This document shows, one piece after another, positions 12,574-41,230 of a DNA stretch of 64,000 nucleotides; position 1 is the first letter of the stretch, and the number at the start of each line of letters is the position of its first letter. The stretch is taken from the NCBI GenBank assembly GCA_021787615.1, contig JAJYLP010000003.1, forward strand, positions 37,812 through 101,811. Direction: 5' to 3'. The notes below the pieces were generated by a model. The model ran no database searches. It had not been told where the DNA came from and saw only the letters and a list, made by a program, of their open reading frames with translations. This stretch comes from Pseudomonadota bacterium. Lineage in GTDB: Bacteria > Pseudomonadota > Gammaproteobacteria > Steroidobacterales > Steroidobacteraceae. The translations under genes and the position numbers were made by a program.

Positions 12574-12588
12574 GTAACCTCCTTCAGC

Positions 12589-13620
12589 TCAGAGGACGGC
12601 TGGCTGGGATTGTGCCTGATGCGCATCCGGCGCGCCGGGCGGCGGGCCCGCGCGGCGGCGCGGCGCGCGCCGACGCCCCCCCACCGTGTAGATTGCGGCG
12701 GCCGCGATCAGCACGCTCCCTTCGATCAGGCCCTGATAGTTCGCGCCGAGGTTCAGCACATTGAAGCCGTTGGTCAGGGTGTACAGCACGAGCGCTCCGG
12801 CGACGGTCTTGAGCACACTGCCGGCGCCGCCGAAGAGCGATGTGCCGCCGAGGATCGCCGCTGCGATCACCGTCAGCTCCTCGCCCTGCAGGGCAGTCGG
12901 GTTCATGGCGCCGAACCGCGAGGCGTACAGGACGCCGGCGAAACCCGCCGCGAGGGCCGAAAGGACGAACGCGCCGAGCTTGTAGCCGCGCACGTTGATG
13001 CCCGCGAGCCGCGCCGCCTCCGGACTTCCGCCCGCGGCATAGAGGCGCCGCCCCGCTGTGGTGAAGCGCAGCAGCAGCCAGGCGAGCAGCGTGAAGCCCG
13101 CCATGTACAGAATCGGCAGCGGCAGACCCGCGGCGCGCCCGCTCTCGAAGCTCGTCATGGCCGCGAGCGCCGCGGGCGTGCCGACCATGAGCGAGCGGCC
13201 GTCGGTGAGCACCAGCACCAGACCCCGGATCGCGGTGAGCGTGCCCAGCGTGACGATGAAGGCGTTGATGCCGACGAGCTCGACCATCACCCCGTTGAGC
13301 ACTCCCACCGCCCCGGCGGTGGCGAGCGAGACAGCCATCGCGGCCCAGAAGCCGACGTGATCGATCACCAGGATGTTGACGGCCGCGGCCAGCGCGGCGA
13401 CCGAGGCCACCGAGAGGTCGAAGTTGCCCGTGATCAGCACCACGGTCATGGCCACACCCATGATGGCGACCGGCGCGGTCTGATAGAGGATGTTGGTGAG
13501 GTTGACGGGGCTGAGATAGCTCGGCCGGCCGAGCACGGCGGTGATCGCGGTCAGCGCGGCCACCAGCAGCGCCAGCGCGTAGTAGACGCCCGCCTCGCGC
13601 AGGCCCAGCATGCGTCGCAT
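12589..13620 (-). CDS. ABC sugar transporter permease, RbsC type
   Basis: A 343-residue inner-membrane permease of the ribose/xylose/galactose (CUT2) class. It shows about eight to ten hydrophobic helices, with TVVLITGNFDLSVASVAALAA near residue 65 and the cytoplasmic coupling motif SPEAARLAGINVRGYK near residue 225, followed by NPTALQGEELTVIAAAILGGTSLFGG (key part GEELTVIAAAILGGTSLFGG). I chose the start at 13620 (MRRMLGLREAG) because a G-rich site lies just upstream and the stop of the ATPase gene is 17 bases away. It forms one importer with the ATPase and binding protein encoded upstream. The C-terminal 30 residues are Arg/Pro-rich. Confidence 0.92.
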   Translation of the reverse strand: MRRMLGLREAGVYYALALLVAALTAITAVLGRPSYLSPVNLTNILYQTAPVAIMGVAMTVVLITGNFDLSVASVAALAAAVNILVIDHVGFWAAMAVSLATAGAVGVLNGVMVELVGINAFIVTLGTLTAIRGLVLVLTDGRSLMVGTPAALAAMTSFESGRAAGLPLPILYMAGFTLLAWLLLRFTTAGRRLYAAGGSPEAARLAGINVRGYKLGAFVLSALAAGFAGVLYASRFGAMNPTALQGEELTVIAAAILGGTSLFGGAGSVLKTVAGALVLYTLTNGFNVLNLGANYQGLIEGSVLIAAAAIYTVGGRRRAPRRRAGPPPGAPDAHQAQSQPAVL

Positions 13621-13637
13621 CGATCCCCCCGAACCCG

Positions 13638-15170
13638 TCACTGTAATGTTTCCGGCCGGCGCAGCCCGGCAGCGGCGCCGCGGGCGGCTCCGGCGGCGAG
13701 CCGTATCAGCTCTGCCTCGTCGGTTTGCGCGGCGAGGCGTTCCGCCACGATCGCGCCCTCGCGCATCACGAGGATGCGGTCGGCCTCCTCGAGCAGCAGT
13801 TTCAGCTCCGAGTCGACCAGGATGACCGCCACCCCGGAGGCGGCGAGCGCCCGGACCTGATCGAGGATTTCCGCCTTGGCGCCGACGTCGATCCCCGCGG
13901 TCGGCTCGTCGAGCAGCAGCAGCCGCGTCGGTCCGCACAGCCAGCGGGCGATGCTCACCTTTTGGGCGTTGCCGCCGGAGAGGTCCCCGACCGCCGCATC
14001 GAGGTCGCGCGTCTTGATCAGCAGGCGCCTGACGGCCCCGGCCGCGGCCTCGCGCTCGAGCCGCGCCTGCGGGAACACGCCCCAGCGCGAAAAACGCACC
14101 AGATGCGCGAGCGTCATGTTCTGCCACAGCGGCAGGCCGGGCACCAGCGCCTGCGCGGCCCGATCCTCGGGCACCAAGGCGACCCCGGCGCGCACCGCGG
14201 CGATCGGGGAGCGCGGCAGGGTCCGGCCGAGCAGGCGCACCGCGCCGCGGGCGTCGCGGTCAGCGCCGAAGACCGCATGGAGCAGCTCGCTGCGTCCCGA
14301 GCCGAGAAACCCGGCGATCCCGAGCACCTCGCCGGCGCGCACGCTGAAGGTGCACGGCGCCAGATGTCCGGGCGAGCGCAGCGCGTCGATCTCGGCAACG
14401 ACCTCGGCGCCGGCACACGCGGCCGCTCTGGCAGTCCGATGTATCGCGCGCCCGGCGATCGCGGCCGCGATTGCAGCTTCATCGACCGCTGCGGTCTCGG
14501 CGCTCATCACCACGGCGCCGTCGCGCAGCACGGTCAGCGCGCCGGTCAGCGCCAGCGCTTCGTCGAGAAAGTGGGTCACGAACAGCACCGTGCGGCCCTC
14601 GGCGGCGAGTCGGCGGATCGCGCGGTGCACGAGCTGCCGCTCGGGGGCGGCGAGCGAGGCGGTCGGCTCGTCCATGACGATGAGCTGCGCATCGGCCGCG
14701 AGCGCCTGCAGAATGCCGACCATCTGCCGCTCGCCGATCGCGAGCGCCGCGACCGGCGTCTCGGCGGGCAGGTGATAGCCGATCGAGTCCATCAGCCGCG
14801 ACAGCCGCCGGCGCTCCTCGCGCCCGCGCCGCCAGTATCCGCGCTGCCCGAGAAATACGTTCTCCAGCACCGACAGCGCGCCGACCAGGGGAATCTGCTG
14901 GTGCAGCGTGGCGATGCCGGCCGCGCGCGCGCGCGCCGGATGCGGCCACTGCACCGCCGCGCCACGCCAGCGGATGGTGCCGGCGGTGGCCGGCGTGGCC
15001 CCGCAGAGGATGCGGATGAGGGTCGACTTGCCCGCGCCGTTGGCCCCGAGCAGGCCGTGCACGGTCCCGGGGTCGACCGAGAGATCTACGCCGCGCAGCG
15101 CGGCGGTGCCGTTGGGATAGATCTTTGCCAGGCGTTCGAGCGAAAGCAGCGGTTGGGCGGCGCTCGACAT
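13638..15170 (-). CDS. ABC sugar transporter ATPase, RbsA/MglA type
   Basis: A 510-residue fused double ATPase of CUT2 sugar importers. The first domain has Walker A GANGAGKST (near residue 38) and Walker B VMDEPTASL; the second domain has the degenerate nucleotide site GFLGSGRSELL (near residue 285), signature LSGGNAQK and LLLDEPTAGID. That asymmetry is normal in this class. The start at 15170 (MSSAAQPLLSLERLAKIYPNG) is the usual distance from the first Walker A. It is separated by 7 bases from the binding-protein gene and by 17 from the permease gene. It energises uptake of an unidentified monosaccharide. Confidence 0.93.
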   Translation of the reverse strand: MSSAAQPLLSLERLAKIYPNGTAALRGVDLSVDPGTVHGLLGANGAGKSTLIRILCGATPATAGTIRWRGAAVQWPHPARARAAGIATLHQQIPLVGALSVLENVFLGQRGYWRRGREERRRLSRLMDSIGYHLPAETPVAALAIGERQMVGILQALAADAQLIVMDEPTASLAAPERQLVHRAIRRLAAEGRTVLFVTHFLDEALALTGALTVLRDGAVVMSAETAAVDEAAIAAAIAGRAIHRTARAAACAGAEVVAEIDALRSPGHLAPCTFSVRAGEVLGIAGFLGSGRSELLHAVFGADRDARGAVRLLGRTLPRSPIAAVRAGVALVPEDRAAQALVPGLPLWQNMTLAHLVRFSRWGVFPQARLEREAAAGAVRRLLIKTRDLDAAVGDLSGGNAQKVSIARWLCGPTRLLLLDEPTAGIDVGAKAEILDQVRALAASGVAVILVDSELKLLLEEADRILVMREGAIVAERLAAQTDEAELIRLAAGAARGAAAGLRRPETLQ

Positions 15171-15177
15171 GAACGGC

Positions 15178-16140
15178 TCACCACTGCGCCCGGCAGTCGC
15201 GGACGTTCGCCCGGGTGATACCGGGGGTCCGGTACGTGATGAACGCCGCGCGCAGGGGTTTCTTGCCCGTGACGTCGCCGTAGAGCGCATCGAAAGCGAG
15301 CGCGCCGAGCTCCACGGGCTTGTAGCACACTGTGCCGTCGATGCGTCCCGCCTCGAGCGAGAGCACGGCCAGGCGCGAACCGCCGATGCCGATCAGCTTC
15401 GCGTGCGAACCGGCGGAGCGCACCGCGCGGGCGCAGCCGACCGCCATGTCGTCGGCCTCGTTGAAGAAGAGCTCGACGTTGGGATGCGCCTCGAGGATGT
15501 TCTGACAGGCCACGTCCGCATCCTCCGTGCGCCAGTAGCCGGGCTGCGTCGCGACGATCCGGTAGCGCACGTGCGCCGCGCGCAGTGCCTGTTTGAATCC
15601 GTCCTCGCGCTGCAGAACTTCCGGGAATCCGGGCGCGCCCTGGATGACGGCGATGTGCGCGATGCGACCCCGCGGCAGCAGCCGGGCGGCCAGCCGGCCG
15701 GCCTCGCGGCCCGCGGCGGTCTCATTCTGGGTGACCAGGGCCACGAGCTGCGGATAGACCTCGCGCAGCGGCCGCCGGCGCGGGTTGCCGACCTGCGAGC
15801 CCACCGCCACGACGGGGATGCCGGCGCGCGCCGCGTGGTTCACCCAGCTCTCGGCGATGACCGAATCGAGCGGCATGAGCACAATGCCGTTGACCCGCTC
15901 GGCGATCAGGTCCTGCAGATCGTTCGCCTGTTTCTGCACGCGGTTCTGGGCATCGAGGACGATGGCCTGGACGCCCGCGCGGGCGGCCGCCTGCTGGAAG
16001 CCTTTGGCGATGGCCGCGGCGAACGGATAGCTCAGCCCGGCGCTCGAGAGGCCGAAGCGCAGCGGCGCAGCGGCCGCCCCCTGCGCGAGCAACACCCCGC
16101 ACAGGGTCGCCGCAACTGCCGTGGCGCGCCCGGTGCTCAC
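15178..16140 (-). CDS. Periplasmic sugar-binding protein, RbsB type
   Basis: A 320-residue periplasmic protein of the ribose-binding (type I) fold. A Sec signal peptide (ATAVAATLCGVLLAQGAAA) is followed by PLRFGLSSAGLSYPFAAAIAKGF, then VNGIVLMPLDS and AGIPVVAVGSQ, and later LFFNEADDMAVGCARAV, which forms part of the ligand cleft. It starts with GTG at 16140; no strong ribosome-binding site is visible, so translation may depend on the MaoC gene that ends 19 bases earlier. It belongs to the importer with the RbsA- and RbsC-type genes. The ligand is unknown and would be the most direct clue to the pathway. Confidence 0.9.
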   Translation of the reverse strand: MSTGRATAVAATLCGVLLAQGAAAAPLRFGLSSAGLSYPFAAAIAKGFQQAAARAGVQAIVLDAQNRVQKQANDLQDLIAERVNGIVLMPLDSVIAESWVNHAARAGIPVVAVGSQVGNPRRRPLREVYPQLVALVTQNETAAGREAGRLAARLLPRGRIAHIAVIQGAPGFPEVLQREDGFKQALRAAHVRYRIVATQPGYWRTEDADVACQNILEAHPNVELFFNEADDMAVGCARAVRSAGSHAKLIGIGGSRLAVLSLEAGRIDGTVCYKPVELGALAFDALYGDVTGKKPLRAAFITYRTPGITRANVRDCRAQW

Positions 16141-16159
16141 GCGCTCGGCCCGCGGCGTG

Positions 16160-16612
16160 TCATGCCAGTGCCTCGCGCCGCTCGACCAGATACAGGTGTT
16201 CGCAGGCGAGGACGGTCTGGCCGTCCTGGTTGGCGATTTCGACCTGTTCCACGATGATGCCGTGCGTCTTGTGCTTGGGATGGTCGCGCCGGCCGCTGAT
16301 GCGAGCGGTCACCGTGAGAGTATCGCCGATGAACACCGGGCGGATGAAGCGCACGCGATCGTACCCATACGACATCGCTCTGGGGTTGATGGTGCTGGCG
16401 GTCATCCCGATGCCGATGCTCAGCACCAGCGTGCCGTGGGCAATACGCCGCTTGAAGGGCTGCTGCGCGCACCACTGCGCGTCCATGTGGTGCGGGAACA
16501 AATCCCCGGTCTGGCCCGCGTGTATCACGATGTCCGCTTCGGTGAGCGTGCGGCCGAACGTGCGCCGCTCGGCGCCGATCTCATAATCCTCGAAGTACTG
16601 CTCGACGATCAT
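16160..16612 (-). CDS. MaoC-type acyl-CoA hydratase/dehydratase
   Basis: A 150-residue hot-dog-fold protein. [24 protein letters not shown] is the usual N-terminus (key part [11 protein letters not shown]), and the hydratase motif appears around [12 protein letters not shown] and [15 protein letters not shown], with the catalytic Asp/His-type residues in [20 protein letters not shown] completes the fold. It would add or remove water at an enoyl-CoA. The start at 16612 overlaps the CaiB stop by four bases, so the two proteins are made together and probably act on the same CoA ester. A related pair (CoA-transferase plus MaoC-type hydratase) acts in itaconate and mesaconate breakdown, but the lyase of those pathways is not present here. 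Confidence 0.87.
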
Positions 16613-17817
16613 GCCGGCTCCCCAGGCGAGTCGAGCCCGAAGCGGCGCAGGATCTCGTCGGTGTCGCGGCCGAGCGGCGGGGCGCCGCGCGAGGCGCCGA
16701 GCACCGTCCCGTCGATGCGGATCGGGCAGCGCGTCGTGCGCAGCCTGCCGTGATCGCCGTCGCGGATCTCCTGCGTCAGCGCAAGCGCCGCAAAACCCTC
16801 GTGCTCGAGCAGCTCGGGCCAGGTGAGCACCTCGGCGCACCACACGTCGGCCGGCTCGAGGATCGCCAGCCAGTGCGCGGTCGGCTGGGCGGCGAGGTGC
16901 GCCGCGAGTGCGGTCTTGATCCGGGCCCGCTCGGTGAACCAGCGATCCGGATCGGTGTAGGCCCGCAGCGGCTCGCAGCCGATGAGCGCCCCGAGCCGGT
17001 CGATCGGGGCCATGGCGACCGCGAGATAGCCGTCGGCGGTCTGATAGATGCCGTACGGCGCGCCGAGGTACACGCTGGCGTTGTTGACTGCATCGCGGGC
17101 CGGCTGCTCGCCCTCGCCGTTGAGAAACGCGGTGAACTGCTCGAACTGCATGTCGATGGCGGATTCGAACAGGCTCACGTCCACCCGTCCGCCCTTTCCG
17201 GTGCGCCCGCGCCGCACCAGCAGCGCGAGCACCCCCTGGCACAGGTGCGCGCCGGCCATCAGGTCGGCGATGGACACGCCCATGGGCACCGGCCCTTGGG
17301 CGGCATCGCCCGAGAGCCAGGCCAGTCCCGAGATGGCCTGAACGAGCAGGTCCTGCCCCGGCTTCGTGCGCCAGGGCCCTTCGGTACCGTAGCCGGTGAT
17401 AGCCGCGTAGATCAGGCTCGGGTTCAGGGCCGCCACCGTGGCGTAGCCGAGGCCGAGGCGGTCCATGACGCCTGGGCGGAAATTGTGCACCATCACGTCG
17501 GCGCGCCGGATCAGCGCCTTGACCCGCGCCAGATCGGTGGGATTCTTCAGATCCGCGGCGAAGCTTGCCTTATTGCGGTTGATGGTATGAAAGAGCGCGC
17601 TGTCCCCGCCGAAAGACTGATCGGCGAGATAGAGACGGCGGGACAGATCTCCCCCCTGTGGACGCTCCACCTTGATGACCTCGGCACCGAGATCCGCCAG
17701 CCGCAGGCAACAGGAAGGCCCGGCTAGAAACTGGCTGAAATCCAGTACCAGCACCCCCTCCAGCGGTCGCTCCGCGGTCGTCCCCGGCGCGTCGCGGTCC
17801 GCGTGCGCTGTCTTCAA
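16609..17817 (-). CDS. CaiB/BaiF family (class III) CoA-transferase
   Basis: A 402-residue cytoplasmic CoA-transferase. [39 protein letters not shown] (key part [18 protein letters not shown]) opens the fold, [14 protein letters not shown] and [18 protein letters not shown] follow, and [10 protein letters not shown] carries the conserved catalytic Asp near residue 185. It would move CoA from a donor thioester to a carboxylic acid. It is the first gene of the leftward set and lies directly beside the divergent operator. CoA activation is unusual in a sugar-import operon; the acid substrate is unknown. Confidence 0.9.
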
Positions 17818-17915: not shown

Positions 17916-19052
17916 ATGCGCAAAGACCGCGCGATCCTGCTGCGGGGCATGACCTGGGATCACCCGCGCGGCTACGGGCCGCTCGCGGCCTGCTCGGCCG
18001 CCTGGCTCGGGCGCACCGGGGCGCGGATCGAGTGGGAGCGGCGCTCGCTGCAGGATTTCGAGTCCTTTCCGGTGGCCGAGCTGGCCGCCCGCTACGACCT
18101 GATCGTCATCGACCACCCGCACGTCGGGCAGGTGACGCGCGAGGGCTGCCTGATACCGCTCGATGCGGTCCTCGATGCGGACGATCCGGCGCCCGCGGCG
18201 GTCGGGGCTTCGCTCTCAAGCTACCGCTGGGAGGGTCTGCTCTGGGCGCTGCCCATCGACGCGGCGGCACAGGTTCAGGCGTGGCGGCCGGACCGTCTGA
18301 GCGCCCCGCCCGCCGACTGGCCGGCTGTGCTCGAGCTGGCGGCGGCCGGCGCGGTACAGTGTCCGCTGCGTCCGCCGCACAATCTGATGGCGCTGTTCAC
18401 GCTGTGCGGACTGGCCGGACATCCGGCCCGAGCGAGCGGCGGGGAGCTGTTCGAGCCGGCGGCGGGGCGTGAGGCCTATGAACGTCTGCGGGAGCTCGTC
18501 GCGCGAGTCGATCCGTTGTGCGCTGAACAGGACCCGATCGCGGTGCTGGAGGGGATAGCGGCGCCGGACTCGGCCACCGCCTGCGTGCCCCTCGTTTATG
18601 GTTATGTCAGTTATTCCAGGCGCGGCGCCCCAGGGGCGCGCATCGCATTCGCGGATCTCGCGCCGCTCGCGCGCGGCGGCTCGTGCGCCGGCTCGGCGCT
18701 CGGCGGTACCGGCATCGCCGTCTCGGCGCGTTCCGCCGAGCGCACCGCCGCGATCGCCTTCGCCCGCTGGGTCGCAGGCCGCGAGGCGCAGTGCGGGCCG
18801 TATCTGGCCGGCGGCGGCCAGCCGGCGCACCGCGCCGCCTGGGACGATCCGGCCGCCAATGACGAGTCGCTCGGCTTCTACCGCAACACGCGCGCGACGC
18901 TCGAGGGCGCCTGGGTGCGCCCGCGTCACGTCGGCTACATGAGCTTCCAGGAAACCGCCGCGCGGCGCCTGCAGGCGGCGCTCGGCGCGCGGGAACCGGC
19001 CGCCGCAGTGATCACGGCGCTCAATCGACTGTATCTCGAGGCATCACCATGA
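17916..19052 (+). CDS. Second solute-binding-like protein without signal peptide
   Basis: A 378-residue protein that resembles family-1 sugar-binding proteins: an N-terminal lobe RAILLRGMTWDHPRGYGPL, the hinge-like DLIVIDHPHVGQV, and the C-terminal SAERTAAIAFARWVAGREAQ and NRLYLEASP. I chose the ATG at 17916 because GAGGGGG lies upstream; an earlier in-frame ATG at 17838 would place the operator inside the gene. There is no export signal. The gene is first in the rightward operon and overlaps the GH127 start by four bases. Like the protein at 10578-11768 it has no dedicated permease nearby. Its function is unknown. Confidence 0.7.
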   Translation: MRKDRAILLRGMTWDHPRGYGPLAACSAAWLGRTGARIEWERRSLQDFESFPVAELAARYDLIVIDHPHVGQVTREGCLIPLDAVLDADDPAPAAVGASLSSYRWEGLLWALPIDAAAQVQAWRPDRLSAPPADWPAVLELAAAGAVQCPLRPPHNLMALFTLCGLAGHPARASGGELFEPAAGREAYERLRELVARVDPLCAEQDPIAVLEGIAAPDSATACVPLVYGYVSYSRRGAPGARIAFADLAPLARGGSCAGSALGGTGIAVSARSAERTAAIAFARWVAGREAQCGPYLAGGGQPAHRAAWDDPAANDESLGFYRNTRATLEGAWVRPRHVGYMSFQETAARRLQAALGAREPAAAVITALNRLYLEASP

Positions 19053-20884
19053 ACCGACCCACCTCACGCCGCGCGTTTCTCCAATCGGCCGCGACGGCCG
19101 CCGGACTCGGGGTCATCGGCGGCCGCGCTCGGTGGGCCCGCGCGCGCGCGCTGACGGCGCGCGATGCAGCACAGGGCTCGGCCGTCGAGCGTCTGCGTGA
19201 GTTCGACTACGGCGATGTCGCCCTCACCGGCGGACCGCTGAGAGCGCAGTACGACTTCATTCACGCGCATTACCTCGCGCTCGACAACGAGCGGCTGCTG
19301 CAGGTGTACCGCGAGCACGCCGGCCTGCCCGCGCCCGGCATCGACATGGGCGGATGGTACGGCGCCGGGGGCTTCATTCCGGGCCACTCTTTCGGTCAGT
19401 ACGTCTCGGGCATTGCGCGCATCGGGCGCTGCACCGGCGACGAGGCGTGCCGCACGAAAGTGCACGAGCTGATACGCGGCTTCGGCAAGGCGCTCGATGC
19501 CAACCCGGTTCCCTACGCCGGCGAGGGCGCCTGGAAGATGTGGCCGGCCTACGTGCTCGACAAGCACATGATCGGGCTGATCGATGCCTACCGGCTGAGC
19601 GGCATGCAGCCGGCGCGCGGGCTGATCCCGCGGGTAATCCGCGGCGCGCTGCCGTTCATCTCGCCGGTCAGCCGCGATCGGATCGGCGTGAAGACCCCTC
19701 CCTACGACGAAACCTACATCGTCTCGGAGAACCTGTTCACCGCGGCGCACCTGACCGGGGAGCGCAGCGTGCGCGATCTGGCGGTGAAATACCTGCTCGA
19801 CAAACCGTATTTCGACCCGCTGGCACGCGGCGAGAACGTGCTCGCCGGCCGCCAGGCCTACAGTCATGTGATGGCGCTGAGTTCGGCGGCCAAAGCCTAT
19901 ATCGAGCTCGGCGAACCGCGCTACCGCGAGGCGATCGTCAACGGCTGGAGGTTCCTCGACGAACAGAGCTACGCCACCGGCGGCTGGGGGCCGAACGAGC
20001 TGCTGATCGCGCCCGGGACCGGCGCGCTCTACTCGAGCCTGACCCACAGCGCAGATCACTTCGAGACGCCGTGCGGGACGTATGCGACCATGAAGCTTGC
20101 CCGCTATCTGCTGCGCTTCACGGGCGATGCGCGCTACGGCGACGGGCTCGAGCGCATCATGTGGAACGGGCTGCTCGCGGTCCGCCCGCCGGACTCCAAC
20201 GGCAACTCGCCGTATTATTCGAGCTACAACCCGGACGCGCAGAAAGTCTTTTATCCGCAGAAGTGGCCATGCTGCTCCGGCACGCTGGTCCAGGGCGTAG
20301 CCGACTACGTGCGCAACGTCTATTTTCATGCGCCCGGCTCGCTCTACGTGAATCTGTTTACGCCCTCGCGGGTCCGCTGGCGCAGCGGCGGACGGGCGGT
20401 GACCCTCACACAACACACCGATTACCCGGCTGGCGAATCGGTAACACTGCAGGTCGCGACCGCCGCGCCGGCGGCGTTCGCACTCATGATCCGCGTTCCC
20501 GGCTGGCTCGCCGCCGAGCCCGAGATCCGCGTCAACGGCCGGCGCGTGTCCGGGGCAGCCGCGCCGGGCACGTTCGCCGCGCTCAGGCGCACCTGGCGCG
20601 ACGGTGACCGGGTGGAGCTGCGCCTGCCGCAGGCGCTGCGCACGCAGCCCGTTGACCGCTCCCATCCCGACACCGTCGCCCTGCTGCGCGGGCCGCTCGT
20701 CTACAGCGCACTCAACTTCACCGGCCCCGGCACACCCGTGCCGCGGCTCGATGTGGCCGGGATCACGCCGGTGGCAGGCTTGGCCGAGACCTACCGGCAG
20801 ATGGACCGCGGACAGCAGATCCTCTTCGTGCCGTTCTACAAGGTTCTCAACGAGTCCTACAATGTCTACTTCCAGAGGGCCTGA
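19049..20884 (+). CDS. Tat-exported GH127-type (DUF1680) glycoside hydrolase
   Basis: A 611-residue enzyme of the beta-L-arabinofuranosidase (GH127 and relatives) family. It begins with a twin-arginine signal (SRRAFLQSAATAAGLGVIGG). The (alpha/alpha)6 barrel includes GWYGAGGFIPGHSFGQYVSG, HFETPCGTYATMKLARYLL (near residue 340, a Glu followed by Cys) and KWPCCSGTLVQGVADYV (near residue 410), which hold the candidate Glu and Cys catalytic residues of the family. The C-terminal third is beta-rich. It is translationally coupled to the gene before it, and the next gene begins within its last codons. It probably releases a furanose or related sugar in the periplasm to feed the importer; the actual sugar may not be arabinose. 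Confidence 0.83.
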   Translation: MNRPTSRRAFLQSAATAAGLGVIGGRARWARARALTARDAAQGSAVERLREFDYGDVALTGGPLRAQYDFIHAHYLALDNERLLQVYREHAGLPAPGIDMGGWYGAGGFIPGHSFGQYVSGIARIGRCTGDEACRTKVHELIRGFGKALDANPVPYAGEGAWKMWPAYVLDKHMIGLIDAYRLSGMQPARGLIPRVIRGALPFISPVSRDRIGVKTPPYDETYIVSENLFTAAHLTGERSVRDLAVKYLLDKPYFDPLARGENVLAGRQAYSHVMALSSAAKAYIELGEPRYREAIVNGWRFLDEQSYATGGWGPNELLIAPGTGALYSSLTHSADHFETPCGTYATMKLARYLLRFTGDARYGDGLERIMWNGLLAVRPPDSNGNSPYYSSYNPDAQKVFYPQKWPCCSGTLVQGVADYVRNVYFHAPGSLYVNLFTPSRVRWRSGGRAVTLTQHTDYPAGESVTLQVATAAPAAFALMIRVPGWLAAEPEIRVNGRRVSGAAAPGTFAALRRTWRDGDRVELRLPQALRTQPVDRSHPDTVALLRGPLVYSALNFTGPGTPVPRLDVAGITPVAGLAETYRQMDRGQQILFVPFYKVLNESYNVYFQRA

Positions 20885-22148
20885 GGGCGCGCGCGTCACC
20901 GCGCGCTACTGGATCGAGACCGCCCGCCCGCTGGAGGAGGCCGCCGCCACGATGGCCGGTGAGCAGTCGACCGGCACGTTCGTGCGGGTCGCGGGAGAGA
21001 CCGATGCGCTGCGCGAGCGCTTCGCCGCCCGCATCGAGGCGCTGACGCCCATTGGCGAGACCAACGCGCCGTCGCTTCCCGGGGCCTGGCGGCCGAGCGG
21101 CGGGTCGGCCGTGTGGCACACCGCGCAGGTCACGCTGTCCTGGCCGCTGCACAACTTCGGACCGTCGCTGCCGAACCTGCTCGCCACCGTCGCGGGGAAT
21201 CTGTGGGAGCTGAAGGCGTTCTCGGGAATGCGGCTGCTCGATCTTACGCTGCCGGCTGAGTTTCTCTCGGTGTACCCGGGTCCGCAGTTCGGCGTAGCCG
21301 GCACACGCGCCGTGAGCGGCGTGCGCGGCCGGCCGCTCATCGGCACGATCATCAAGCCGAGCGTCGGTCTCTCGCCGGATGCCACTGCCGCGCGGGTCGC
21401 CGAGCTCGCCGCCGCCGGCGTGGACTTCATCAAGGACGACGAGCTGCAAGCGGACGGCCCTCACTGCCCGTTCGAGGCGCGCTTCAGCGCAGTGATGCGC
21501 GTGCTGCGCGAGCACGCAGAGCGCACCGGGCAGCGGGTCCTCTATGCGGTCAACATCACCGGCGAGATCGATCAGATGCTGCGCCGCCACGAGCGTGTCG
21601 TGTCCGAGGGCGGCAACTGCGTCATGGTGAGCCTCAACAGCATCGGCCTGCCGGCGCTCACGGCGCTGCGCGCGCACTGTCAGGTGCCGATCCACGGGCA
21701 CCGCAACGGCTGGGGCCTGCTCGGGCGCTCGCCGGCAATCGGCGTGAGCTTCCCGGCCTGGCAGAAGCTGTGGCGGCTCGCAGGCATCGACCACGTGCAC
21801 GTCAACGGGCTCGACAACAAATTCTGCGAGAGCAACGAGTCGGTCATCGCCTCCGCGCGCGAGTGTCGCACGCCGATGTTTCCGCCGCCGGCGCGCGGTT
21901 GCGAAATCATGCCGGTGTTCTCCTCCGGTCAGACGGCGCTGCAGGTGCCGGGCACGTGGCAGGCGCTCGGCACGGTGGATCTCATTCACGCCTGCGGCGG
22001 CGGGATCATCGGCCATCCCGGCGGCGCGGTCGCCGGCGTGCGCAGCCTGCGTCAGGCGTGGGAAGCGGCCGTCGCGGACATCCCGCTCGGCGAATATGCG
22101 CGCGAGCACCGGGAGCTCGCCGAGGCGATCGCGACCTTCGCCCGCTGA
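20862..22148 (+). CDS. RuBisCO-like protein with intact active-site residues
   Basis: A 428-residue homologue of the RuBisCO large subunit. Key positions are retained: GEQSTGTF (Glu 34, Thr 38), GNLWELK (Asn 113), GTIIKPSVGLSP (Lys 165), FIKDDE (Lys 191, Asp 193, Glu 194, the carbamate/metal triad), HGHRNGWG, HVNGLDNKFCE (Lys 320, loop-6 lysine), FSSGQTA and HACGGGIIGHPGG for phosphate binding. The changed loop 6 and the overall sequence indicate a RuBisCO-like enzyme and not a carboxylase for CO2 fixation. Known relatives beside DUF1537 kinases decarboxylate or transcarboxylate 3-oxo-isoapionate 4-phosphate. The ATG at 20862 overlaps the GH127 gene by 23 bases. A phosphorylated 3-oxo sugar acid is the expected substrate; its identity is inference. 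Confidence 0.9.
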   Translation: MSTSRGPEGARVTARYWIETARPLEEAAATMAGEQSTGTFVRVAGETDALRERFAARIEALTPIGETNAPSLPGAWRPSGGSAVWHTAQVTLSWPLHNFGPSLPNLLATVAGNLWELKAFSGMRLLDLTLPAEFLSVYPGPQFGVAGTRAVSGVRGRPLIGTIIKPSVGLSPDATAARVAELAAAGVDFIKDDELQADGPHCPFEARFSAVMRVLREHAERTGQRVLYAVNITGEIDQMLRRHERVVSEGGNCVMVSLNSIGLPALTALRAHCQVPIHGHRNGWGLLGRSPAIGVSFPAWQKLWRLAGIDHVHVNGLDNKFCESNESVIASARECRTPMFPPPARGCEIMPVFSSGQTALQVPGTWQALGTVDLIHACGGGIIGHPGGAVAGVRSLRQAWEAAVADIPLGEYAREHRELAEAIATFAR

Positions 22149-22158
22149 GGGAGGCATC

Positions 22159-23472
22159 ATGTCCGGTCGTCTGTATGCGTATTACGGCGACGACTTCACC
22201 GGCTCGACCGACGTGCTCGAGGTGTTGGCGTCGGCCGGCGTGCGCAGCGTGCTGTTCATCGGGCCGCCGAGCGGGACACGCGAGCGGGGTTTTTCGGATT
22301 GTCAGGCCTTCGGTATCGCGGGCGACAGCCGCAGCCGCACCCCGCAGTGGATGAGCGAGCATCTGCCGGCGCTGTTTGCGCGGCTGGGCGAATTCGGCGC
22401 GCCGATCACACACTACAAGACCTGCTCCACTTTCGACAGTTCGCCCTGGATCGGCTCGATCGGTCGCGCGCTCGAAATCGGCCGCGACACGCTGGCCGGG
22501 CCTGTCATTCCGATCGTGGTCGCCGCGCCGCACCTCGGGCGCTACGTGGCCTTCGGCAACCTGTTCGCGGCCGCCGCCGGCGTCGTGTACCGCATCGACC
22601 GCCATCCGAGCATGCGCGCCCACCCGGTAACGCCCATGCACGAGGCGGATCTGCGCCGCCACCTGGCCGCGCAGACCTCCATGCGCATCGGATTGATCGA
22701 GCTACCGTCGCTGGCGCGGAACACGGCCGCCGAGGCGCTGGCCGGCGGCATGGCCGCGGGCGAGGCGGCCGTGCTGTTCGATGGGGTCAGCGAGGCGGAC
22801 CTGGCGCAGACCGGGCGGGTGCTGTGGCGCGCCGCCGAGCGCCACGCGCTGTTTTGTGCCGGCAGCTCCGGTCTGCCGTACGCTCTGCTCACGCCGTGGC
22901 GTGAAGCCGGGCTGATACCAGCGCGCCTCGATCCGCCGCCGCGCGCCCGGCCCGTGGACACGCTGCTGGTCATGAGCGGCAGCTGCTCCCCGGTGACCGA
23001 GCGGCAGATTCAAGCGGCGCTGCGCGCCGGCTATCATGGCATGACGCTCGATCCCAAAGTGCTTCTCAGCGAAGCGCGCGGTCCCGAAGCAGCCGGACAA
23101 TTGGTGCGGCAGACGGTCTCCAATCTGCGCGAGGGCCGCAGCACCGTCGTCTACAGCACTCTCGGACCTCTGGGCGCGGGCGCGGGCGCCGCAGGCGAGG
23201 CGCTCGGAAAGTGTATGGGCGATGTGCTCTTGCGCATCCTCGCCGAAGCGCCCGTGCCGCGCGTGCTGCTCGCCGGCGGCGACACCTCGAGCCACGCCGT
23301 GTCCCGGCTGGGTCTATACGCCCTCACTTGGCTGGCGAGCCTCGAGCCGGGCGCGCCGCTGTGCCGTGCTCACGCCGACACGCGGACCGGCCTAGATGGC
23401 TTGGAGCTGGTGCTCAAGGGCGGTCAAGTGGGGAGCGAGGCGTTCATCGAACGTGCACGGGTCGGGCGCTAG
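22159..23472 (+). CDS. DUF1537 (four-carbon acid-sugar kinase family) kinase
   Basis: A 437-residue kinase of the OtnK/OiaK family. The N-terminal sugar-binding domain opens with YAYYGDDFTGSTDVLEVL and contains HYKTCSTFDSSPWIGSIGRA; the C-terminal nucleotide-binding domain has VMSGSCSPVTERQI and LLAGGDTSSHAVSRLGLYALTW (key part LAGGDTSSHAV). These proteins phosphorylate tetronates or 3-oxo acid sugars with ATP. The start at 22159 has GGGAGG five bases upstream and lies 10 bases after the RuBisCO-like gene, so the two products probably act in sequence: phosphorylation, then decarboxylation or carbon-carbon cleavage. It is the last gene of the rightward operon. Confidence 0.9.
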   Translation: MSGRLYAYYGDDFTGSTDVLEVLASAGVRSVLFIGPPSGTRERGFSDCQAFGIAGDSRSRTPQWMSEHLPALFARLGEFGAPITHYKTCSTFDSSPWIGSIGRALEIGRDTLAGPVIPIVVAAPHLGRYVAFGNLFAAAAGVVYRIDRHPSMRAHPVTPMHEADLRRHLAAQTSMRIGLIELPSLARNTAAEALAGGMAAGEAAVLFDGVSEADLAQTGRVLWRAAERHALFCAGSSGLPYALLTPWREAGLIPARLDPPPRARPVDTLLVMSGSCSPVTERQIQAALRAGYHGMTLDPKVLLSEARGPEAAGQLVRQTVSNLREGRSTVVYSTLGPLGAGAGAAGEALGKCMGDVLLRILAEAPVPRVLLAGGDTSSHAVSRLGLYALTWLASLEPGAPLCRAHADTRTGLDGLELVLKGGQVGSEAFIERARVGR

Positions 23473-25905: not shown

Positions 25906-27177
25906 CTAGCCCGGCGCGGCTTCCCCGAGCGTCTCGGGCTCAACTGTCAGCCCCGCCGTGCAATCCACGCGCGAGAATACGATCGCCGCGATCAGCACCA
26001 TCAGCGCCACCGCCTGCACGGGCAGTTCATAGTTGCCCGTGGCGCCGACGATATAACCAAATGCAAGGGTGCACAGCACCCCGCCAGCCTGGCCGGCCGT
26101 GTTCATCACTCCGGTGGCCGCCCCGCCGTGATTGCCGCCGATGCTCATGCACATGGCCCAGGCTGCCGGCAGCATCAGGTCCATGGTGGCGAAGCCGGCG
26201 GTGGCCAGGACCACGATCGCGATGCGGTCGGTGACGAGGCTCATGGCGAGCAGCAGCCCCGCGCCCGCGATCAGGCAGCCGGCGGTCATCAGGCGCGTGG
26301 CGCTGCGCAGGCCGATCCTCACTCCCAACCGGTCGCACACCGTCCCGCCGATGAGGTTGCTGCCGATGCCGAGCAGAAACGGCAAGGCCGCATACACGCC
26401 CATCTGCCGCAGCGTGAAGTGCCCGGCATGCACCATCCAGGTCGGAAACCAGTTGAAGTAGAACCAGCTGCCGGCGCCGTAGCAGCCGTATGCGAGCACG
26501 ATAAGCCACAGCTGGGGCAGCTTCAGCAGGCGGCCGAGCACGCCCCTGCCGCCGTGCGCATCGCCGCGGCGCTCGCCGATTTCTGCGAGTTCCTCCGGGC
26601 GAATGCCCGGCTGCTCGGCCGGACGGTCGTGATACCACAGCCACCAGGCGAGCGCCCATGCCGCGCCGATGATGGCCAACACCCAGAACACCGCTCGCCA
26701 GCCGAAGTGGATCGCGAGCGGCACCAGCAGCAGCGGTGCGAGCGCCCCACCGAGACGGCTCGCGGCCCACACCGCGCCCTGCCCGCGCGCCCGCTCGCGT
26801 GCCGGCAGCCAGCGCCACAGCACGCCGGAGGCGTTTGGATACGCCCCCGCCGAGCCGATGCCGAAGCAGAAGCGCACGATGGCGAGCGGTATGAAGCGCG
26901 TGCACGCGCCAGTGAGCGCGGTGAAGCCTGACCACCAGGCGGCGATGCGCGAGAGCTCGCGCCGCTGACCGTGACGATCGCCGAGAGCACCGGAGGGGAT
27001 CTCGAACAAGCCGTAGGCGATCACATAGGCGCTGAGCACCCAGCCCCACTGCTCCGGGGTGAGCCCGAGGTCGTGTTGAATGCTGGGTCCCAGCACTGAG
27101 ATGGCCATCCGGTCGAGGAAGGTGATGACCGAGACGACGCTCAGCAGCCCGACGACGGCATAACGTTTCTTGAGCAT
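25906..27177 (-). CDS. MFS transporter, anion:cation symporter (ACS) type
   Basis: A 423-residue inner-membrane carrier with about twelve hydrophobic segments. ITFLDRMAISVLGPSIQHDLGLTPEQWGW and FEIPSGALGDRHGQRREL (motif A) are typical of the hexuronate/glucarate/phthalate ACS branch, as are RFCFGIGSAGAYPNASGVLWRW (key part GAYPNASGVLWRW) and the GAATGVMNTAGQAGG helix. It is the last gene of the leftward rhamnose operon; its ATG abuts the racemase stop with no gap. It may import a uronate or sugar acid, such as galacturonate fragments from rhamnogalacturonan, but its substrate cannot be read from sequence. Confidence 0.87.
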   Translation of the reverse strand: MLKKRYAVVGLLSVVSVITFLDRMAISVLGPSIQHDLGLTPEQWGWVLSAYVIAYGLFEIPSGALGDRHGQRRELSRIAAWWSGFTALTGACTRFIPLAIVRFCFGIGSAGAYPNASGVLWRWLPARERARGQGAVWAASRLGGALAPLLLVPLAIHFGWRAVFWVLAIIGAAWALAWWLWYHDRPAEQPGIRPEELAEIGERRGDAHGGRGVLGRLLKLPQLWLIVLAYGCYGAGSWFYFNWFPTWMVHAGHFTLRQMGVYAALPFLLGIGSNLIGGTVCDRLGVRIGLRSATRLMTAGCLIAGAGLLLAMSLVTDRIAIVVLATAGFATMDLMLPAAWAMCMSIGGNHGGAATGVMNTAGQAGGVLCTLAFGYIVGATGNYELPVQAVALMVLIAAIVFSRVDCTAGLTVEPETLGEAAPG

Positions 27178-27852
27178 TCAGCCGGCCCCGAGGCCGAACA
27201 CCTCGCGCACCTGACGCACACCGGACTCGGGACTCGACAGCACGGGCGCCTTGACGGCGCCCGGCGGCAGGGCCGCCACCACGCGGGCCATGGACGCCTG
27301 CGCCAACACGATGACGTCGACGTCGCGCATCCTTTCGGTCAGCGCCGCGCTCACAAGGCGGTCGTGCGTGGCGGTATCGCCCGCGAGCACCGCCTCGAAT
27401 GCGCCCTCGCACAGACACTCGACTACATCGATCGTGCGTCCTGCTTCAAGCGCAGCGGTCCGTACCAGCGCCGACGTGGGCTCGAGCGTTGTGCGAAGCG
27501 TAGCGAGAACGCCGATCCGCCGACCCTGCCGCACGGCGGCGCGCGCCATGGGCGCATCGACCCGCAGCACGGGCGGATCGTACAACTGCCGGGCAATGTC
27601 CACGGCCGGGCCAATGGACGAGCAGGTCACCAGCACGCCGTCCGCGCCGGCCTCGAGCGCGGATCCGACCAGCGTGGCGAGCCGGCGCACGGTGGTCTTC
27701 TCCAGCCGCCCGGCCTGTATCGTGTTCTTGATCAGGCTCTCATCGACGGTGTGGAAGATCTGCACTTCCGGCAGCCATTGCGCGCACAGGGATGCGAACA
27801 GAGGCGTCAGGACCGGCGAGGTGTGCAACAGGGCGAGCTTGCGGTGCGGCAT
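27178..27852 (-). CDS. Asp/Glu/hydantoin racemase-like protein, one catalytic Cys missing
   Basis: A 224-residue protein of the aspartate/glutamate racemase superfamily. The first catalytic Cys is present in GVLVTCSSIGPAVD (near residue 79), but the second, which usually sits in a GCT- or ACTGM-like motif, is replaced: the matching stretch reads VIVLAQASMARVV (near residue 180). A two-base racemase mechanism would therefore be impaired, so an isomerase, decarboxylase or lyase-type role, or a one-base reaction, is possible. It lies between the GH78 gene (1-base gap) and the MFS gene (0-base gap), so it is firmly part of the operon. Substrate unknown. Confidence 0.8.
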   Translation of the reverse strand: MPHRKLALLHTSPVLTPLFASLCAQWLPEVQIFHTVDESLIKNTIQAGRLEKTTVRRLATLVGSALEAGADGVLVTCSSIGPAVDIARQLYDPPVLRVDAPMARAAVRQGRRIGVLATLRTTLEPTSALVRTAALEAGRTIDVVECLCEGAFEAVLAGDTATHDRLVSAALTERMRDVDVIVLAQASMARVVAALPPGAVKAPVLSSPESGVRQVREVFGLGAG

Positions 27853-27853
27853 G

Positions 27854-30800
27854 TCAGTCTCTCGTCAAGTCATAGGTTCCCGAGCCCAACTCGGCGGTGA
27901 AAGCAGCGGACCCAGGCGTCACGGGACCGAGCGCGGCCGTTCTCAACGGCGCGCCGTCGGCGCGCCACTCGGCCGGCAGGCCCGGCAGATGCACCTCGGC
28001 GCGGCTGTTCGCCGGTACCCGCACCTGCAGCCGCGCGAGGCCGCGCGCATCTCCCTCGAGCTCCGTCGAGATCGGCCCGAGGCACGAGGCGTAGTGGGCA
28101 CGCACGCGCGGAATGCGCGCATCAAAGATCGGATCGACCTTGATGCGCCGGAAGCCGGGCGCGGCCTCGTTGATGCCGCCGACGCGCCGGTACATGAACC
28201 CGACCACCGCGCCGAGCGCGTAATGATTGAAGGAGTTCATGGACTGATCGACCGCATTGCCGTTCCAGCGCTCCCACATCGTGGTCGCGCCGTGATCGAT
28301 CATGTAGCCCCAGGACGGGTATTTCGTCTGCAGCAGCAGCGTGATCGCGAGGCGCTGCTGGCCGGTGTCGGCGAGCGCATCGAGCAGACAGGGGGTGCCG
28401 AGAAAACCCGTGGACAGCAGGTTGCCCCGGGCCTCGACATTCGCGGCGAGCCGCGCCCCGGCGCGCCTGCGCAGCGCCGACGGTACCAGCCCGAAGCGCA
28501 GCGAGAGCGCGTAGCTGGTCTGGCTGCCGTTGCCGACGGTACCGTCTGCGCGGAGGAATTCACGTACGAATGCCTGTTCGATGCGCCGGCGCATGCTGGC
28601 GTAGCGCTGCGCCTCGTCGGCGTGACCGATGGCCGCGGCCATCTCGGCCATCAAGGCCGCGCAGCGGGCCCAATAGGCCGTCGCGACGAGTGTCTTCGGC
28701 GTCGTTGCCTCGGCGGGATTCGGCGCGACATCAGCGTTGGTGGAGACGACCGACAGCCAGTCGCCGAGATCGATGCCGCGACGCTGCCGCCAGATGAAAT
28801 CCGGATTGGCCGCGGCCACGTAGTCGACCCAGCGTTGCATGTGGATCCAGTTCTCTTCGATCACGGCGGTGTCGCCGTAGCGCCGATACAGCGTCCAGGG
28901 CAGGATCACGCCCGCATCGCTCCACCCCGCGGTCACCAGCTCGGGGAAAGAGCGCGGCTGGGGCGTGACGATGGGGAAAGCACCATCGGGCGTTTGACCA
29001 GCGCGCACCTCGCCCATGAAGCGGCGGATGAACGCGTCGACGTCCATGTTGAACGCGGCGGCGTCCAGGAACACCTGGATATCGCCCATCCAGCCCATGC
29101 GCTCGTCGCGCTGCGGACAGTCGGTCGGCACGCCGAAGAAGTTAGAGCGCTGGCTCCAGAGAGCGTTATGCCAGATCTGCTGCGCGATCGGCTGCTCGAG
29201 CTCGAGCGCGCCGCTCTCGGCGGCATCGGTGTGCGCCACCACGCCTTCGAGGCACTCGCGGGTGGGCACGCCGGGATAGCCGGTGATCTCCACGTAACGG
29301 AAGCCGTGGTAGGTGAAATGCGGCTCGTAGGTCTCGCCATGCGGATCGCCGCGCAGCGTGTAGTGGTCCGTTGCAAGCGCCGCACGCAGGTTAGATGTGT
29401 TGATGGTACCGTCCGGGTAGAGGATCTCCGCGTGCCGCAGGCGCACCCTCGCGCCCGCCGGCCCCGTGACGTGCAGCCGGCACCAGCCGGCGAAGTTCTG
29501 CCCGAAGTCGCAGACGTAGACGCCCGGCCGCGGCTGCGTGATCGCGCGCACCGCCAGTGTCATCAGAGCGCGGATCGGTGGGTCGACCTGTGCCACGAGC
29601 CGCTCGCGCGGCCGTGCGCCGATCGCAGCGGTCTGCCAGGCGGAGGCGTCGTAATCCGGCAGATTCCAACCGGGGCGCTCCAGCCGCGCGTCGTAATCCT
29701 CGCCGTTGTAGATTTCCGACGAGAGGATCATCGAGTCGGCCAGCCGCCAGCTCGAGTCCGTGACAATGACGTCGCGGCTGCCATCGGTGTACTCGAGCAC
29801 CAGCTGCGCGAGAAATCGACGCGGACTGCCGGCGAGGGAATAACGCTCGTTCGTCCAACTGAATGCAGAGGCATACCACCCATCGCCGATCAGTGCGCCG
29901 AGCGCGTTGCGGCCGGGATGCACCTGCTCGGTGGCGTCGTAGCATTGATATAACACGTGGTCGTTGGCCACGGTGATTTCCGGCGACAGCCGGGCCGTAC
30001 CCAGCCGCCCCCCGTTGAGGTACAGCTCATAGGCACCGAGAGCCGTTGCGTAGAGTCTGGCACGCGCCAGTGGCTTCAGGACGTCGAATTCGCGGCGCGC
30101 GAACATCGCCATGCGCGGCGGACGCGGATCGCACCGCGGGGCAGTGGCGGCGGGACGCGCGCGTGGCCAGTCGCTGTCATCGAAGCCTGGCTGAGTCCAG
30201 CCGGCCGGTGCCGTACGCGAGGCTCGCCAATCCGGTCCGCTCGGGAAACGACCGATCGTTCCATCGCGGTGCCACACCTTCACCATCGCGGCGAGCGCAC
30301 CGCCCGTCCCTGGCATGAAGGTGCCCGGGTCCGCGCGGCCGCTCACGGCAATGACGTGCGCGCCAGCGGTCACCGGCAGCGCGATGCGCTGCATCGACCC
30401 CCAGGGCCGCTCGGCGGGCAGCGAGACCGGCTGGCCGTCGATCCACACGCCGAGCAGGTCGTCCTTGGCGGACAACCATAGCTGCGCCTGCCGCACGCCC
30501 CCGGGCAGGGTGAACCGATGTCGCAACTGCTGCGGTTCAGGGGCGAGCGCCGGCGCGTCGCTCCAGATCCAGTGAATGCCGACCGCGCGGTCGGCGCGCT
30601 CGTGCGGGTCCTCGATGTCCAGCCATTCGGCCTGCCAGTCGGATGGCTGCAGCAGCCCCATCTCGAACCAGGCGGGCTCGCTGGGTGCCGATGGACGGTC
30701 GTCGCCGTCCCACACCTGCACCCGCCACCACACACGCTGCGCAGAATGGAGCGTCCTGCCTTCGTAGAGCACCTCGAAGCAGCGGTCCGAGCGCACAACA

Positions 30801-34423: not shown

Positions 34424-34505
34424 GACGGTCGCCGCGGGAATGCACGCGGCCGCCCGGTGGCGGGCGGGGAAATCGCGACGGCGCAGATCCGTGCAGCGAA
34501 GCGCA

Positions 34506-35255: not shown

Positions 35256-35268
35256 GTCCCCGTCCTCC

Positions 35269-36123: not shown

Positions 36124-36181
36124 GGCGTAGCGATCGATTTCCTGCAGCAGCGTGAATCGGGGGGAAGACGGGGCGGACGGC

Positions 36182-37360: not shown

Positions 37361-37435
37361 GTACTGCGTCGGGTCTCAGGTCGGGGGCGGACGGACGGGC
37401 TGCGGGTCGCTGTGGTTGCGGCCGCGGCCCCTGTC

Positions 37436-38349: not shown

Positions 38350-38369
38350 GCGGGGGTCCCCGGGGAGCC

Positions 38370-41159: not shown

Positions 41160-41230
41160 GCGGGCACTCGTCTGGCGGAAGGGACTGCATCGGGACGTCA
41201 CGCCTCGACCCTGAAGAGCGGTCCCCATAT

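Follow-up and report, generated by a model that had tools for sequence, protein, structure and literature searches.

Rhamnogalacturonan II (RG-II), a pectin, counts as one of the most complex glycans of plants, and hydrolases for its linkages are known. Its side chain B contains aceric acid (3-C-carboxy-5-deoxy-L-xylose), a rare branched acidic sugar, and the Bacteroides RG-II degradation system described by Ndeh and colleagues in 2017 reportedly includes an aceric acid hydrolase, the GH127 enzyme BT1003. We know of no described catabolic route for aceric acid and of no RuBisCO-like protein (RLP) route in B. thetaiotaomicron, and a literature search by title, thin on subscription papers, found no description of the bacterial fate of the freed sugar. 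The catabolism of D-apiose, studied by Carter and colleagues in 2018, is said to proceed via ApnO, OiaK and either OiaX or OiaT. Kim, Lim and Lee (2018, cited in PMC8914248) reportedly found an RLP oxygenase in D-hamamelose use. There, too, the RLP acts on a branched sugar acid. Here we analysed a stretch of 64,000 nucleotides from a Steroidobacteraceae genome (the window; genome G000), in which an RLP and a DUF1537 kinase adjoin a GH127-type enzyme.

The RLP operon and its conserved partners

Four plus-strand genes, which a sequence-only reading had described as tightly linked, are all present nearly as described, with no more than a few bases of overlap or gap between them; its assignments of a signal-less binding-like protein, a Tat-exported GH127-type enzyme, an RLP and a DUF1537 kinase hold. 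Absent from that reading were two conserved divergent partners: AG, 3.7 kb downstream of the RLP-kinase pair, and an adjoining anion transporter (MFS; arrangement hRKm'A').

17916..19052, plus strand: solute-binding-like protein without signal (SBPa), operon gene 1 (Pfam SBP_bac_8, 39.3 bits)
19049..20884, plus strand: GH127/GH146-like hydrolase with Tat signal (motif SRRAFL; Pfam GH127 catalytic domain, 131 bits)
20862..22148, plus strand: RLP (RuBisCO_large, 240 bits; N-domain, 44 bits)
22159..23472, plus strand: DUF1537 kinase, start ATG (SBD_N, 186 bits; NBD_C, 107 bits)
25906..27177, minus strand: MFS transporter of the anion:cation symporter kind (TIGR00893, D-galactonate transporter, 221 vs 395 bits)
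27178..27852, minus strand: AG, Asp/Glu-racemase-fold protein (PF01177, 73.5 bits)
27854..31111, minus strand: GH78 alpha-L-rhamnosidase, a conserved neighbour (Bac_rhamnosid6H, 404 bits)

The RLP belongs to form IV of the RuBisCO superfamily, with both large-chain domains (PF00016, 240 bits; PF02788, 44 bits) and the KDDE metal site; by inspection its best ATG is at 20862, and the GTC at 20895 is no start codon. Aligned to the true RuBisCO of the same genome, it keeps N123, K175, K201, D203, E204, H294, R295, H327, K334, S379, G381, G403 and G404, including the metal site and loop-6 Lys as read earlier, and carries I, S and S in place of T173, K177 and G380. Methionine salvage, named by the sequence-only reading as a counter-result, was rejected, as the RLP reached 160.6 bits with the MtnW model (TIGR03332), whose cut-off is 513.6. 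OiaX (3-oxo-isoapionate-4-phosphate decarboxylase, NF042437) is a full-length relative of the RLP, and OiaK (3-oxo-isoapionate kinase, NF042436) of the kinase, which carries both DUF1537-kinase domains; membership of either family was rejected because the scores (448 and 459 bits) lie well below the curated cut-offs of 700. The 3-oxo-tetronate kinase model gave 190 bits (cut-off 350). In RLP trees the window clade and the ApnO-linked clade are sisters, and AG-type proteins are not monophyletic; an ApnO-linked RLP from Xanthobacteraceae (L054, 63% identical) may be an OiaT.

AG falls in the Asp/Glu racemase family PF01177, and its AF2 model (pLDDT 95.5) confirmed the racemase fold, with Z scores of about 21 to aspartate racemases (21.2 to 1jfl). 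The fold is that of Asp/Glu/hydantoin racemases, maleate isomerase and arylmalonate decarboxylase, but AG differs from these enzymes in its single conserved Cys, its sugar-catabolism setting and its marginal sequence match to solved family members. Its invariant segments are T76-C77-S78-S79 and AQ-S-M; the second racemase Cys segment reads LAQAS and is Cys-free in the aligned proteins, so that only one of the two catalytic cysteines of the racemases has a counterpart in the alignment, C77.

The window's hydrolase belongs to the GH127/GH146 superfamily (PF07944, 131 bits; PF20736, 95 bits) and its Glu/Cys zinc site, which includes the nucleophilic Cys, is invariant (E339, C342, C408, C409); Glu and Cys are separated by one additional residue. 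It is no BT1003 orthologue, scoring 93 bits with the aceric acid hydrolase model (NF049879; cut-off 950), and both its sequence and its predicted fold are nearer to GH146 beta-L-arabinofuranosidases (closest solved structure 5opj, GH146). SBPa is accessory: it is present in gammaproteobacterial MAGs, Sphingomonas gei and Croceibacterium (orthologues at 54-90% in L033-L038, L043, L057 and L113), and neither it nor the inspected relatives of SBPa and of a second SBP-like protein have a signal peptide.

Recurrence and association with aceric acid hydrolase

The trio of RLP, kinase and AG is common to Acidobacteria, Proteobacteria, Bacteroidota, Verrucomicrobiota, Planctomycetota, Chloroflexota, Actinobacteria, Paenibacillus and one haloarchaeon. 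Seven or more bacterial phyla and one archaeon thus share it; its order is conserved, ApnO is normally missing, and the GH127-RLP-kinase order was found again in Acidobacteria, sphingomonads and gammaproteobacterial MAGs. Sorted by neighbourhood, the RLP-kinase loci comprised 32 with AG, 17 with ApnO, 24 with TRAP and VOC genes and 15 others. A GH127 gene lies within 10 kb on either side in 21/32 AG loci, compared with 0/17 ApnO and 0/24 VOC loci, and GH78 is present in 19/32 AG loci vs 0/41 of the ApnO or VOC type. Four further GH127 matches accompany RLPs of the window's own clade, with AG absent from the stretch of sequence covered. A class II aldolase was found as downstream partner at one locus only (L078). 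The earlier reading had named uniqueness to this genome as a second counter-result; the recurrence refutes a chance neighbourhood, for which nothing beyond the window itself speaks and whose probability we regard as negligible.

In other phyla BT1003 orthologues occupy the slot directly upstream of RLP-kinase-AG that is taken in the window by a different GH127/146-like subfamily. Against the NCBIfam model for aceric acid hydrolase these enzymes score 996.5 (L062), 943 (L078), 899 (L074) and 749 bits (L086), and the cut-off of 950 is reached in L062, G225, W01, G610 and G816. The two subfamilies exclude each other: of the 24 AG-type genomes or plasmids compared, 13 carry window-type GH127, 8 carry aceric acid hydrolase and none carries both. 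Genomes with the window type score at most 103 bits with the hydrolase model, and those without it carry the hydrolase at 1196, 1189, 998, 943, 899, 894, 779 and 748 bits. Since the window's enzyme is no BT1003 orthologue and is nearer to GH146, we infer its substrate from operon slot and exclusivity, and propose that it is the functional counterpart of aceric acid hydrolase.

The association is also directly observed in a survey of 395 Bacteroidota genomes; apart from the centre genome, neither AG nor the hydrolase played a part in their selection. AG was present in 8/395, and the hydrolase exceeded its cut-off in all eight vs 12/387 of the others (20/395 overall; p=9.2e-12, or p=1.8e-10 without the centre genome). 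G610 and G816 each hold one operon of hydrolase-RLP-kinase-AG-SBF, adjoining GH106 in the former and a BT_1020-like protein in the latter, and the window-type GH127 of L039 stands in the same order. The expectation that aceric acid hydrolase implies an RLP failed in 294 Planctomycetota, where the centre genome alone has both genes; AG therefore implies the hydrolase and not the reverse. Among five Planctomycetota with the hydrolase, the RLP is missing in four and AG in three. Likewise, 12/20 Bacteroidota carriers have the hydrolase without the cassette. Other fates of aceric acid must therefore exist. Whole-genome profile comparison found RLP-kinase-AG but no clear aceric acid hydrolase in Paenibacillus and the haloarchaeon. 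Proximity to RG-II enzymes could partly reflect shared RG-II context and not aceric acid itself.

D-apiose was our first working idea, with kinase and RLP acting like OiaK and OiaT on 3-oxo-isoapionate from RG-II apiose and on the phosphate of this acid, while AG replaces ApnO or acts downstream. The two systems share a related DUF1537 kinase-RLP pair and a predicted 3-oxo acid that is branched and phosphorylated beside its ketone; OiaX and OiaK are the nearest named families, the window RLP clade has ApnO-linked RLPs as sisters, GH140 exceeds 150 bits in 8/24 AG-type genomes, and L045 has ApnO together with AG. However, ApnO (PF16896) gave no match in G000 and is absent from 10/12 AG-type genomes searched (G000 and 9/11 others), with 3/3 control genomes with known ApnO loci positive. 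GH140 apiosidase (PF13204) is missing from G000, G019, G035, G217 and G224, and was found in control genomes. The earlier statement that neither enzyme is recognisable thus extends to the whole genome, and the window system also lacks ApsD and ApnL, having AG and an anion transporter instead. Conversely, G429 combines an RLP with ApnO, ApsD, ApnL and GH140 but has neither AG nor aceric acid hydrolase, and AG tracks the hydrolase in 8/8 genomes. A separate module of isomerase, split transketolase and FGGY kinase, which presumably resembles a non-oxidative apiose route, shares the locus with RLP-kinase-AG in L074, L076 and L052. After the searches for ApnO and GH140 and the AG-hydrolase survey we dropped the apiose idea, which we now consider unlikely. 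A weaker AG relative lies about 40 kb from ApnO in the ApnO-type genome G218.

We know of no glycan-degradation context and no AG described for the D-hamamelose pathway. Still, its RLP oxygenase, and the nearness of the window's hydrolase to GH146 beta-L-arabinofuranosidases, would fit another branched sugar acid accompanying RG-II-type glycans (hamamelonate-like or another 3-oxo acid), with an arabinofuranosidase sharing the operon by chance. We judge this quite improbable: in several phyla, and with members of two different subfamilies, the gene immediately upstream of the RLP encodes a GH127 enzyme, and those of the BT1003 type are aceric acid hydrolases (PMC10850190). The cassette quite probably serves aceric acid, which gives the earlier suggestion of a route differing from that of apiose a specific candidate substrate.

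A candidate route for aceric acid

The window also encodes a non-phosphorylating L-rhamnose pathway and a set of glycosidases (33521..52041, both strands), followed by a further GH78:

33521, minus strand: lactonase, rhamnose pathway
34506, minus strand: SDR, rhamnose pathway
35269, minus strand: diketo-hydrolase, rhamnose pathway
36182, minus strand: rhamnonate dehydratase
38370, minus strand: GH78
41259 and 43424, plus strand: two GH42
45590, plus strand: GH29
47256, plus strand: Lra1, rhamnose pathway
48129, minus strand: GH137-like
49288, minus strand: TonB receptor
52234-55104, plus strand: further GH78

This set would match the sugars of side chain B. A catabolic cassette for aceric acid, made up of RLP, kinase and AG, is on the whole a likely explanation, and we infer the following steps. 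GH78, GH42, GH29 and the GH137-like enzyme would trim chain B, and the GH127-type enzyme would free aceric acid outside the cytoplasm. Cassette transporters resemble anion carriers (MFS in the window, SBF/PanS-like in other lineages), which speaks against apiose; they would take up the acid, and we propose the MFS as a putative importer. AG would isomerise the aldose to the 2-ketose CH2OH-CO-C(OH)(COO-)-CHOH-CH3, a 2-C-(1-hydroxyethyl) 3-oxo-tetronate homologous to 3-oxo-isoapionate, which could be reached without oxidation, lactonase or ApnO. The DUF1537 kinase would phosphorylate the CH2OH adjacent to the ketone, and the RLP would act on the resulting branched 3-oxo acid.

For the RLP, OiaT-like carboxyl transfer and cleavage, giving 3-phosphoglycerate and lactate, is favoured over plain decarboxylation to 5-deoxypentulose 1-phosphate, because the window protein keeps N123, H327 and S379, none of which is present in the annotated OiaX used for comparison; going by these residues, we give an OiaT-like reaction an even chance. 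Of the branched-sugar operon in the sequence-only reading, the apiose-type kinase-RLP pair and the secreted GH127-type enzyme freeing a sugar remain. The oxidation step fell away because the conserved cassette includes no oxidoreductase. Simple removal of a carbon is not supported either: the retained active site is at least equally suggestive of carboxyl transfer and cleavage.

The role of AG as aldose-ketose isomerase is tentative, a little short of even, and to our knowledge lacks family precedent, as no racemase-fold aldose isomerase is known. This and its fold would suit an AG that acts after the RLP or as a racemase, with another isomerase in an otherwise unchanged aceric acid route, which we regard as a real if somewhat weaker possibility. 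Against it stand the Cys-free second segment and the planctomycete G438, where the RLP is absent, yet an apparent transketolase-AG-SBF operon lies 2.8 kb from the hydrolase; the AG step is therefore suggested to be upstream of the RLP. Taken in all its parts, an undescribed pathway in which AG is a cofactor-free isomerase and the RLP moves the sugar's own carboxyl and splits the skeleton to 3-phosphoglycerate and lactate, with transketolase replacing kinase and RLP in some Planctomycetes, is rather doubtful. If true, it would fill a gap in RG-II catabolism, the fate of aceric acid after release, give the RuBisCO superfamily a new job, bring the racemase fold into sugar isomerisation, and make RLP-kinase-AG a gene signature by which RG-II users could be recognised across many phyla and in a haloarchaeon.

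The upstream linked module

Eight linked minus-strand genes of doubtful role precede the operon (9511..17817):

9511-10581, minus strand: Gfo/Idh/MocA
10578-11768, minus strand: second signal-less SBP
11734-12573, minus strand: IclR
12589-13620, minus strand: ABC permease
13638-15170, minus strand: ATPase
15178-16140, minus strand: Peripla_BP_4
16160-16612, minus strand: MaoC
16609-17817, minus strand: CaiB-type CoA-transferase

Gfo, SBP, MaoC and CaiB genes adjoin the aceric acid hydrolase in Olivibacter, as do MaoC and Gfo in G563, and the whole module from Gfo to CaiB is also found on a Croceibacterium plasmid.

The operon and its surroundings

The window (bases 37812-101811 of contig 93) lies in a 3.7 Mb genome that is 99.7% complete. 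The four linked genes of the sequence-only reading, encoding a solute-binding-like (SBP-like) protein, a GH127-like hydrolase, a RuBisCO-like protein (RLP) and a DUF1537 kinase, were confirmed with the domains claimed. The proposed Tat export of the GH127-like protein is likewise borne out by a twin-arginine signal, also present in most of its relatives, and the SBP-like protein, described as signal-less, indeed has no signal peptide. Neither was one found in a second SBP-like protein of the window or in the relatives inspected (Croceibacterium, Olivibacter). These proteins may be cytoplasmic sensors or have some other role.

Features of the window
9511-17817, second module: CaiB-type CoA-transferase, MaoC dehydratase, signal-less SBP and Gfo/Idh/MocA oxidoreductase
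10578-11768, second signal-less SBP-like protein
17916-19052, signal-less SBP-like protein of the operon
20862, best start (ATG) of the RLP, within the 3' end of the GH127-like gene
22159, start (ATG) of the kinase, preceded by GGAGG
25906-27177, minus strand, MFS carrier, adjoining AG
27178-27852, minus strand, AG (Asp/Glu-racemase-fold protein), the partner of its locus class

In Olivibacter (L157; 41-59% identity) the second module likewise adjoins an aceric acid hydrolase, and in G563 (L159) part of it does; the module is also present on a Croceibacterium plasmid (L113) and in part in a haloarchaeon (L077). The latter, Natronoglomus mannanivorans, combines RLP-kinase-AG with GH29, GH137-like, Gfo, SBP and MaoC homologues, a gene content suggesting that archaea acquired much of the locus by transfer. 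An ARAGORN call of tRNA-Pro at 11045-11140 (minus strand) falls within the coding region of the second SBP-like protein and is probably spurious. Next to the locus, a run at 58927-63840 (yidC, yidD, rnpA, then dnaN- and recF-like genes, identified by eye only) looks like the replication-origin region. The genome also encodes a true RuBisCO large subunit (L001; contig 5, 32709-33632), and the organism may therefore be a facultative autotroph.

Placement of the RLP and contrast with apiose loci

The nearest NCBIfam families of the RLP and kinase are the D-apiose pathway enzymes OiaX (448 bits) and OiaK (459 bits), each with a cut-off of 700; RLPs of same-genus genomes score 436-453 bits against OiaX, and the nearest matches with a name are unclassified proteobacterial MAGs. 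The RLPs annotated oiaX in Rhizobium are only about 44% identical to that of the window, and in Rhizobium johnstonii the gene order is RLP-kinase-ApnO-ABC-ApsD-ApnL, where we take the unnamed neighbours to be ApnO, ApsD and ApnL from the apiose operon layout. In two trees the window RLP falls in a 27-member clade (support 100/100 and 100/99) of gammaproteobacterial MAGs, sphingomonads, an alteromonad and Acidobacteria, with ApnO-linked RLPs as sister group. Another clade with good support comprises Bacteroidota, Opitutales and Bythopirellula, and AG-linked RLPs occupy more than one clade. Alignment upheld the claimed retention of metal-site and loop 6 residues: the window RLP and almost all of those linked to AG preserve the RuBisCO positions that serve enolisation, metal, phosphate and loop 6, with Ser in place of K177.

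Mapping reference genes onto 88 RLP loci yielded four settings: an AG class, in which an MFS or SBF carrier is usual and GH127, GH78, GH29, GH42, GH137-like and GH33-like proteins are frequent; an ApnO class, the apiose operon; a TRAP and VOC class, within which 3nwr falls in the tree; and the remaining loci, several with an SDR. The window belongs to the AG class, and its order, GH127-RLP-kinase followed by divergent MFS and AG, is seen in 13 loci. The VOC class (L081, L088-L090, L092, L094-L103, L105-L112, L120) is large, separate and beta- and alphaproteobacterial; its RLP and DUF1537 operons carry a VOC/glyoxalase-like protein, mostly a TRAP carrier, and include PDB entry 3nwr.

Three Planctomycetota separate the gene sets. 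In G429, where RLP-kinase occurs with ApnO, ApsD, ApnL and GH140, both AG and aceric acid hydrolase are missing; G224 carries RLP-kinase-AG and the hydrolase, with GH140 not found. G438 has the hydrolase, no RLP found, and an apparent split transketolase-AG-SBF operon (L136, 6452-9972) 2.8 kb from it, possibly a transketolase variant of the same pathway. ApnO was not found in 10 of 12 AG-type genomes tested. L074, L076 and L052 encode an isomerase, a split transketolase and an FGGY kinase in the same locus as RLP-kinase-AG, arranged as in the non-oxidative apiose route; apiose would therefore have its own enzymes there. In Planctobacterium marinum (L045, L139), ApnO, RLP, kinase and AG stand together, with an aceric acid hydrolase and two GH78 genes about 21 kb off; apiose and aceric acid may share a single RLP/kinase pair there.

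Association with aceric acid

Chain B of rhamnogalacturonan II contains aceric acid, arabinose, rhamnose, O-methylfucose and galactose, and removal of O-methylfucose requires earlier loss of Araf and Rha (PMC12282258); BT1003 is a GH127 aceric acid hydrolase (PMC10850190). Aceric acid was first guessed because the window encodes GH137-like, GH78, GH42 and GH29 proteins and an L-rhamnose pathway, and was tested afterwards.

Scored with the aceric acid hydrolase model (cut-off 950 bits), the GH127s beside RLP-kinase-AG in other phyla reach 996, 943, 899 and 749 bits; their identity to the window enzyme is only 19-22%. In whole genomes (24, phylogenetically non-independent), AG-type members without a window-type GH127 all have the hydrolase (748-1196 bits), save two Paenibacillus and one haloarchaeon, which have no clear one; in those with a window-type GH127 it was not found. 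In a test independent of the RLP, AG occurred in 8 of 395 Bacteroidota genomes, all eight with a hydrolase above the cut-off (p=9.2e-12; counts rest on drawn samples); all eight loci show RLP-kinase-AG-SBF. G610 and G816 have a single run, hydrolase-RLP-kinase-AG-SBF, adjoining a BT_1020-like protein in G816. L039, where a window-type GH127 precedes RLP-kinase-AG-SBF, bridges the two arrangements. The hydrolase without the cassette is common. As the window GH127-like enzyme is nearer GH146, its putative role on aceric acid rests on its operon slot and the mutual exclusion.

A candidate route

The enzyme superfamilies are already known; their combination, the substrate and the role of AG appear undescribed in the literature searched, which left out most subscription papers and all preprints. 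Open-chain aceric acid is CHO-CHOH-C(OH)(COO-)-CHOH-CH3. Shifting its carbonyl from C1 to C2 would yield CH2OH-CO-C(OH)(COO-)-CHOH-CH3, which differs from 3-oxo-isoapionate only in having CHOH-CH3 in place of CH2OH. This isomerisation would fall to AG, the sole remaining conserved enzyme for the step. Its predicted structure, modelled at pLDDT 95.5, adopts the racemase fold (Z 21 against aspartate racemase) but with a single conserved cysteine, C77, the second-cysteine segment reading LAQAS; one-base chemistry would suit a 1,2-proton shift. The carbonyl shift would account at once for the missing ApnO and lactonase, for the DUF1537 kinase and the RLP of the 3-oxo-isoapionate branch that come after it, and for the resemblance of the carriers to anion carriers.

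For the RLP, plain decarboxylation to 5-deoxypentulose 1-phosphate is a possible but less favoured reaction. The window RLP retains the RuBisCO residues N123, H327 and S379, all lost in annotated OiaX; this favours a predicted reaction in which the carboxyl group is transferred and the skeleton cleaved, giving 3-phosphoglycerate and lactate.
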